In this document: positions 6,974-9,134 of the stretch, one piece after another | How positions within the stretch are numbered: the first letter of the stretch is position 1 | Layout: the number at the start of each line of letters is the position of its first letter | Source of the DNA: Ignavibacteriota bacterium | GTDB taxonomy: Bacteria > Bacteroidota > Ignavibacteria > Kapaibacteriales > UBA2268 | Assembly (NCBI GenBank): GCA_024636855.1 | Contig: JAGXGG010000075.1 | Coordinates: forward strand, 1 to 64,000 | Direction of reading: 5' to 3' | DNA: 64,000 nucleotides | Program-made: the position numbers and the translations under genes | The notes under the pieces: model-generated | What the model saw: only the letters and a program-made list of their open reading frames with translations | Databases searched by the model: none | Told to the model about the DNA's origin: nothing

Positions 6974-7015
6974 CAGTCATTCTGATAACGCTGGAAGCGT
7001 TAGAAGAATCCAGGA
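6974..7015. repeat. interspersed palindromic element family A (copy 1)
   Basis: cagtcattctgataacgctggaagcgttagaagaatccagg. Confidence 0.7.
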
Positions 7016-7110
7016 AATATACAGTATTGCCGTTGGCTTCAGCCAAAGGTTAATGAATAGACTAAAACTTCAAGTCTCAAAGTATGCCGATTCGAAGTAG
7101 TAAATAGTGA

Positions 7111-7166
7111 AATTCCCCTTTTTTCAAAAAGGGGTGGCAGACACACGCAGAGTGGCTGACGGGGTA
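7111..7166. repeat. left inverted repeat flanking the DUF559 gene
   Basis: attccccttttttcaaaaaggggtggcag...tggctgacggggt matches the reverse complement of 7588-7643. Confidence 0.75.
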
Positions 7167-7167
7167 T

Positions 7168-7563
7168 TCAAATATCCACAAAGTTTGTGATTATCTGATT
7201 CTTTAAATTTAGGATTATATTATCCAAATTAATTTTCACATCCAAGTCAGAATATCTTATAACAACTAATCCAAGACTTTTTAAGTAGTTGTCTCTTATC
7301 TCGTCTTCTTCAATTATTTCGTTGTGGCTAACCCCATCGATCTCAATTACAATCCCGAGTTTTTTTATGTAAAAATCAACTATGTAATTACCAATTATTT
7401 TCTGCCTATCAAAGTCAAGATTTAAGATTTTTTTGTGCTTTACTTCGTTCCAAAACAGAACTTCCGAAAGTATTCCTTGTTTCCGAAGATCTCTCGCTCT
7501 TTGTTTTAGTTGTGGGTTTGATGGTAGATTTAATATTCTTTGTTTGAATTTATATTTACTCAT
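7168..7563 (-). CDS. DUF559 domain-containing (endonuclease-like) protein
   Basis: ARDLRKQGILSEVLFWNEVKHKKILNLDFDRQKIIGNYIVDFYIKKLGIVIEIDGVSHNE...RDNYLKSLGLVVIRYSDLDV is the DUF559 / restriction-endonuclease-like pattern. Confidence 0.88.
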   Translation of the reverse strand: MSKYKFKQRILNLPSNPQLKQRARDLRKQGILSEVLFWNEVKHKKILNLDFDRQKIIGNYIVDFYIKKLGIVIEIDGVSHNEIIEEDEIRDNYLKSLGLVVIRYSDLDVKINLDNIILNLKNQIITNFVDI

Positions 7564-7587
7564 ATAGCATTAGTTTTAATAATTTAA

Positions 7588-7643
7588 CACCCCGTCAGCT
7601 AAAGCTGCCACCCCTCTTTCGCGTTGCTTAAAGAGGGGAATCC
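7588..7643. repeat. right inverted repeat flanking the DUF559 gene
   Basis: caccccgtcagctaaagctgccacccctctttcgcgttgcttaaagaggggaatcc, reverse complement of the left copy apart from inner variation. Confidence 0.75.
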
Positions 7644-8938: not shown

Positions 8939-9091
8939 CTTAATAAATTAAGTAGTTGTAAATATCTATTTACAAGATACATATTTATTATCAATTTTGG
9001 AATCTTAATTTTACCACCAAAAAAAAATGGCTGCCCAAAAGCATTTGGACTATTACAACAGAAATTTTTTATATTGAACTGCTCACCAGTT

Positions 9092-9134
9092 TTCCTGGAC
9101 TCTTCTAACGCCTTCGGCGTTATCAGAGTGACGT
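9092..9134. repeat. interspersed palindromic element family A (copy 2)
   Basis: ttcctggactcttctaacgccttcggcgttatcagagtgacg. Confidence 0.75.

Follow-up and report, generated by a model that had tools for sequence, protein, structure and literature searches.

We report a small genetic unit in the window (the whole 64,000-nucleotide stretch of Ignavibacteriota DNA that was analysed) in which a single DUF559 gene is enclosed by two arms, each made of two hairpins and the second inverted relative to the first. This unit is probably a single-gene mobile element, either REP/RAYT-like or homing-like, whose Vsr-like nuclease would act on the hairpin arms. The case draws on the anatomy of the unit, the association between gene and arms, arm classes that appear cognate to the nuclease, covariation at the DNA level, presence/absence polymorphism, gene-less derivatives and in-frame insertions into other genes; from comparison of these loci we infer that the unit is mobile. 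A DUF559 gene combined with hairpins in this manner seems to represent a type of bacterial mobile element that has gained little recognition. DUF559, which includes E. coli YcjD, is a nuclease family with no assigned role, and its tie to palindromes, class by class, raises the testable question of whether it mobilises them. If so, DUF559 would acquire a role, a Vsr-like nuclease would join the enzymes that mobilise DNA, and the palindrome-coded in-frame linkers and nuclease domains of restriction-modification (R-M) enzymes would be explained.

The first-pass annotation had proposed a DUF559 nuclease-like gene that almost fills the interval between inverted, foldable repeats of about 55 nt. Each of these elements was recovered (Table 1): both arms fold into two hairpins to which coordinates could be assigned, the gene is separated from the left arm by 2-3 nt at its stop codon and from the right arm by 20-25 nt at its start codon, and the product matches PF04480. 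The arms are inverted in architecture and are not exact copies, since their loops and stem sequences differ; an inverted-repeat search found them complementary over 21 nt at 86% and over 15 nt at 93%. Terminal inverted repeats, a trait of DNA transposons and insertion sequences, are present both at the window element and in the wider flank test described below. Arms follow the layout ATTCCCC-hairpin 1-GGGGTGG-hairpin 2-GACGGGGTRTT, with conserved segments ATTCCCCTYTTT, GGGGTGGCAG and GCTGACGGGGTRTT, and the covariance model R1 matches the window at 7113-7168 (+) and 7586-7640 (-) with E-values of about 1e-15 to 1e-16 per genome, both window arms being among the sequences used to build it. For the candidate outer tip of the left arm, comparison shows that RTGAAATTCCCC is found again at left-type arms. 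In the CGTC-tagged stem-loop of the window, the C of CGTC forms the first stem position, and the last, just before CCA, is a G.

Table 1. Features of the window element, and genes hosting in-frame DUF559 domains
Feature	Position or locus	Strand	Sequence, form or basis
Left class I arm	7112-7167	+	ATTCCCCTTTTTTCAAAAAGGGGTGGCAGACACACGCAGAGTGGCTGACGGGGTATT; two hairpins
Left arm, hairpin 1	7115-7123/7126-7134	+	
Left arm, hairpin 2	7138-7144/7152-7158	+	
Possible outer tip of left arm, GTAAATAGTGAA	7100-7111	+	Sequence comparison
DUF559 (PF04480) gene, predicted Vsr-like nuclease, 131 aa	7168-7563	-	Pfam, PDB, alignments, AlphaFold2/Foldseek
Right class I arm	about 7586-7643	-	Minus-strand sequence ATTCCCCTCTTTAAGCAACGCGAAAGAGGGGTGGCAGCTTTAGCTGACGGGGTGTT; two hairpins
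Right arm, hairpin 2	7596-7599/7604-7607	-	
Right arm, hairpin 1	7611-7619/7630-7638	-	
CGTC-stem-loop-CCA, tag and tail as in CGTC REPs	7593-7610	+	Sequence, comparison with PMC3733652
HsdR hosts	L133, L135		Pfam or motif
HsdM host	L019		Pfam or motif
HsdS hosts	L127, L132		Pfam or motif
Type ISP hosts	L125, L130		Pfam or motif
Eco57I-like and N6/N4 methylase hosts	L028, L033, L037, L122		Pfam or motif
Probable type III Mod hosts	L038, L124		Read from sequence
Lipoyl-synthase-like host, one gene	L138		Pfam or motif

The window ORF matches PF04480 with an E-value of 2.5e-25 (88.9 bits, against a curated Pfam cut-off of 20.6) and PDB entry 3hrl by sequence with an E-value of 1.2e-9. In alignments, E34, D63, E74-x-D76, H80 and D87 are invariant or nearly so, and the protein is presumably catalytically active. 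An AlphaFold2 model from a 32-sequence alignment reached a pLDDT of 92, and the solved structures ranked highest by Foldseek were 3hrl, itself a DUF559 protein, and 3r3p (E 8.5e-5), the catalytic domain of the homing endonuclease I-Bth0305I, with Vsr ranking lower at a weak E-value; the predicted structure accordingly has the Vsr-like catalytic fold. E. coli YcjD was already placed in the PD-(D/E)XK superfamily in 2005, with Vsr as a profile match (PMC1189080). Pfam returned DUF559 and a weak REase match within the window unit, with no Y1 HUH transposase, and no DDE-like or HUH partner was found inside it. In published titles and abstracts, with bioRxiv and most subscription journals outside that scope, no link was found between palindromes and DUF559, ycjD or COG2852, and priority for such a link is unproven.

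Copies and relics of the element are common in its own genus. The source genome holds three DUF559 genes: besides that of the window, there is a C2 copy with arms of the same kind, interrupted by the end of its contig, and a C14 copy flanked on both sides by a different palindrome, AATCCCCCAACCCCCTTAAA... Class I arms identified by R1 number 14 in this genome, against 39, 19 and 27 in the three congeners, and most arms in the genus have no adjoining DUF559 gene; several are paired in gene-less units of ~200 nt, consisting of a left-type arm, a remnant of the DUF559 3' end and a right-type arm. One such unit occupies the window locus in congener G043, at the same place beyond flhB; in G042 the repeat downstream of flhB runs directly to the end of the next gene with no element, and from G041 the element is also absent. 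Elsewhere in the family other loci vary similarly, with the L023/L045 element present in G053 and G050 and absent from G052 and G051, the L016 element absent from G050 and G052, and a solo arm of G042 (L119) absent from G043. When the flanks of the g1 and g27 elements were joined and searched for in congeners, empty sites came up in which intergenic divergence hides the exact junction. Solo arms and gene-less copies thereby answer to the orphan arms that the first-pass annotation had envisaged; of its suggestion that empty sites in relatives would define a target duplication, the empty sites were found and the duplication could not be defined. At G042/G043 and at the hsdR site described below, where flanks are too divergent, no target-site duplication was seen, and intergenic divergence together with an 11-nt difference at hsdR blurs the junctions.

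Across the family, DUF559 is present in 34 of 54 genomes, and its stand-alone copies are mostly bracketed by palindromes of varied sequence. The association of arms with DUF559, to which the earlier proposal was tied, is borne out at this level: all 13 genomes with a class-I-associated DUF559 have at least 7 arms (median 27), against a median of 7 in the 21 genomes with other DUF559 genes and of 0 in the 20 without any, and arm number follows class I DUF559 (p 1.3e-5, 54 genomes). Arms do occur in four DUF559-less genomes (17 in G004, 26 in G021, 15 in G028 and 15 in G039), as expected of relics or of the product of another mobiliser. As a separate observation, stand-alone DUF559 genes in G051 and G052 (L066, L067) have no recognisable arms and altered conserved residues, and are possibly decayed or repurposed copies.

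The palindrome-bracketed picture recurs in a scan of named genomes covering 80 DUF559 loci from many phyla. Under one fixed rule, the best inverted alignment of left against right flank with a threshold score of at least 16, 66 of 106 stand-alone DUF559 genes qualified, whereas the 233 other ORFs at these loci and the 13 DUF559 domains embedded in long ORFs gave no qualifying case. Strong inverted or direct flank repeats accompany 80 of the 106 genes and at most one control, and among the 26 with neither, some have decayed or diverged arms and some lie at contig ends. This measure is conservative, because the window element, whose arms have diverged, scores just 12. Two arm patterns were distinguished, class I (two hairpins, GGGGTG...CGGGGT) and class II (CCCCC-nn-CCCCC...GGGGG), with 25 genes fitting neither and control hits of 1 and 4 among 222 ORFs. 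On the DUF559 protein tree, many forks of which are unresolved, there are four changes between classes I and II, and seven between class I and all other rows, compared with a shuffled mean of 26.6; a class II call among the class I rows (L129) is really a class I arm with its first hairpin mutated. Arms of the same class, which the first-pass annotation expected at other DUF559 genes, flank the closest relatives of the window gene in at least nine phyla (Bacteroidota, Ignavibacteriota, Balneolota, Bacillota, Cyanobacteriota, Pseudomonadota, Thermodesulfobacteriota, Acidobacteriota and Myxococcota), and this mixing of phyla suggests that class I has spread horizontally; the genus-level and class I samples are mutually non-independent. 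Neighbours of stand-alone copies are unrelated genes, including flhB in the window, a purN- and a purH-like gene with the copy between them, and the suf operon, and units occur in isolate genomes and plasmids too. A search for DUF559 in phages yielded one distant match only, so phage carriage is not the main route. On a Sphingomonas plasmid (L297, 1480-1890), the DUF559 gene lies within the suf operon, between sufB and sufC, and has palindrome-like residues at its termini.

The arms appear to be constrained as DNA. Among 27 class I arms from several phyla, 96.8% of stem cells are paired, against 49-66% in slid structures, and covariation is 0.520 versus 0.142 after shuffling. G-U pairs occupy 1 of 312 cells; since such pairs are tolerated under RNA constraint, their scarcity suggests that the arms act as hairpins or cruciforms of DNA.

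Where DUF559 lies in a long ORF, the domain has in many cases been inserted into another gene, mostly of an R-M system (Table 1), with the translated arms as linkers, e.g. NSPPLEGCPKDGVV. In both type ISP hosts the Type_ISP_C domain picks up at profile position 182 after DUF559, and the PDB structures of LlaBIII and of EcoR124I HsdR can be aligned both before and after the insertion. A Myroides plasmid hsdR with 91% DNA identity to the Weeksella hsdR (L133) lacks the insertion; its empty site reads ACATTA-GGGAATTTATTAAATG and the filled allele reads GGAGGGGAATTTATTAAATG on the right side, the arm tip coinciding there with GGGAAT of the target and about 11 nt differing on the left. At two hsdS 3' ends (L136, L142) the arm tip likewise coincides with an ATTCCCC that is compatible with the usual HsdS terminus, ...QQLFP; intergenic empty sites lack a motif of this type. 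One insertion place is common to HsdR enzymes of two phyla, as is one in ISP enzymes of two phyla, and such shared positions may derive from transfer of the whole gene with its insert. No intron or intein was seen around DUF559. In L039 and L135, arm-like units form in-frame tandem runs (NNSPLLEGTQGVF repeated, for example), which indicates that such units multiply inside coding sequence. Elsewhere, DUF559 lies in frame at the C-terminus of acetyltransferase-like ORFs of Bacteroidales and relatives (L174, L176, L178, L183), apparently as a stable fusion.

The element is real, recurrent, palindrome-bracketed and accompanied by non-autonomous derivatives, its nearest kin are REP/RAYT-like and homing-like systems, and movement driven by DUF559 is the best reading of it. 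The nuclease would recognise the arms as its cognate structures, much as RAYT transposases do with REP hairpins, and gene-less two-arm copies (MITE/REPIN-like) and solo arms would be its non-autonomous derivatives. The Vsr-like nuclease may nick or cut DNA where arm hairpins are extruded or single-stranded, or where a target resembles an arm, after which repair may copy the unit to a new place or leave it there, as in homing. To our knowledge Vsr-like enzymes do not carry out strand transfer, and for this reason the copying step assumes host repair. Hairpin recognition, the copying route and the driving part given to DUF559 are putative. The small mobile unit of the first-pass annotation is supported by the recurrence of arms in at least nine phyla, by gene-less copies and by empty sites; of the homing and transposon-like life styles that it named, we lean towards the homing-like form because the modelled DUF559 fold matches a Vsr-like homing endonuclease.

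It is unlikely that the arms are ordinary REP or terminator hairpins moved by another enzyme, such as a RAYT, with DUF559 genes as passengers. Such an account would accommodate the arms in the four DUF559-less genomes and the CGTC/CCA tags of class I hairpin 2, which are those of a REP superfamily without a known mobiliser. However, DUF559 subfamily predicts arm class across phyla, the flank test separates DUF559 genes (66/106) from neighbouring ORFs (0/233), gene-less copies retain remnants of the DUF559 3' end, and CGTC units flank no RAYT gene in the species of PMC3733652. The single gene, inverted terminal repeats and MITE-like derivatives could also belong to a classical transposon with DUF559 as a true transposase, capable of cut and paste with strand transfer, as TnsA-like nucleases in Tn7. 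We regard this as very unlikely, given that the solved structures related by fold (3hrl and 3r3p at the top, Vsr lower) belong to nickases or homing nucleases, that the unit has neither a DDE-like nor an HUH partner and no visible target-site duplication, and that the many solo arms better fit REP-like spread.

The prevalence of R-M genes among long-ORF hosts (HsdR, HsdM, HsdS, type ISP, Eco57I-like and type III-like Mod) invites a reading in which DUF559 is a defence nuclease, fused or added to these genes by selection and joined to them by arms that are incidental linkers. This appears highly improbable: the domain is enclosed in frame by translated arms of the same kind, stand-alone copies lie beside unrelated genes, one insertion is in a lipoyl-synthase-like gene, and solo arms have spread without the nuclease. 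That a housekeeping gene happens to lie within a fortuitous inverted repeat, or within an assembly artefact, is scarcely credible; although a draft genome has some copies at the ends of its contigs, the flank-test controls and the tracking of arm class with the protein tree refute it, and units recur in isolate genomes and plasmids.

GTAG REPs have RAYTs, and REP-like palindromes are among the commonest bacterial repeats. REPs and REPINs with their RAYTs (REPtrons) resemble the DUF559 unit in having one small nuclease gene between short palindromes in inverted orientation, further palindromes scattered singly or in pairs, enzyme classes matched to repeat classes and no target-site duplication seen. 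They differ in that the RAYT is a Y1 HUH transposase, whereas the window enzyme is a DUF559/Vsr-like nuclease, and in the arms, where the DUF559 unit has two hairpins with CGTC/CCA in place of the REP tag GTAG; GTAG-tagged hairpins, a RAYT and IS200-IS605 trait, were not found in the window arms. CGTC REPs are tagged with CGTC at one end, and their tail mostly fits CCA; they are found in Bacteroidetes, Chlorobi, Spirochaetes and Proteobacteria, include dRS3, RPE-4 and RPE-6, lack a dedicated transposase and flank no RAYT gene in the species studied (PMC3733652). On the other strand, class I hairpin 2 likewise reads CGTC-stem-loop-(G/T)CCA, and intragenic in-frame insertions are common to both; GACGGGG and GGGGTGG flank hairpin 2 in nearly all 27 class I arms; in some of these the C of CGTC is paired, and one base often precedes CCA. 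The published repeats differ in having one 8-9 bp stem with A-T first pairs and no enzyme, whereas class I arms add hairpin 1 (CCCCTYYT) and accompany a DUF559 gene. The full CGTC-REP stem (8-9 bp, A-T at the first two positions, 4-5 nt loop) was not found in hairpin 2, which varies in length and first pairs, and we read the likeness as resemblance, not membership. By a strict pattern, no CGTC dRS3-type hairpins were found flanking alphaproteobacterial DUF559 genes, whose arms are box-C-like or, in Novosphingobium, class I-like.

I-Bth0305I shares with DUF559 the catalytic-domain fold and repeated insertion places in conserved enzymes; in contrast, DUF559 comes without intron or intein, its insert is retained in the protein as an extra domain, and its unit is palindrome-bracketed and has non-autonomous copies. 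MITEs and Rickettsia palindromic elements similarly place short palindromic units in frame in coding genes (PMC10969869), whereas here a gene-bearing form with the same arms exists. In E. coli, ycjD (L202, L211) lies between sapF and fabI and has downstream of it a palindrome dispersed over a median of 19 places per genome; some class II-like arms resemble this palindrome and those flanking Sinorhizobium DUF559. We take the E. coli palindrome to be box C, and we know of no enzyme assigned to it. Box C is described as a 56-bp repeat with 32 copies (PMC2267715). Unlike the window element, ycjD has class II-like arms and occupies one conserved locus, in phylogroups A, B1 and C (PMC12817139). Its presence or absence was considered as a clean insertion and rejected, as ycjD-less strains carry the eefRABCD operon between sapF and fabI (PMC12817139). 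We offer tentatively, with rather less in its favour than against it, the broader proposal that DUF559 nucleases are the missing mobilisers of whole palindromic-repeat superfamilies (CGTC-type REPs and box-C-like repeats), acting as homing-type, Vsr-like enzymes on DNA hairpins, entering genes in frame and favouring R-M hosts. Were DUF559 to mobilise CGTC or box C repeats, this would be a new kind of system.

Two further repeat associations were observed in the genus. A dispersed palindromic repeat, GTCATTCTGATAACGCTGGAAGCGTTAGAAGAATCC, occurs in the window at 6976-7017 and about 9091-9132 in opposite orientations, and has dozens of matches over the four genus genomes. In addition, class I elements and arms of the genus (L060, L061, L064, L069, L110, L112, L113 and L002) often adjoin RHS-repeat-like gene fragments, and do so at two positions that recur, one following GTGATAGC and the other following CCTARGTGGT.
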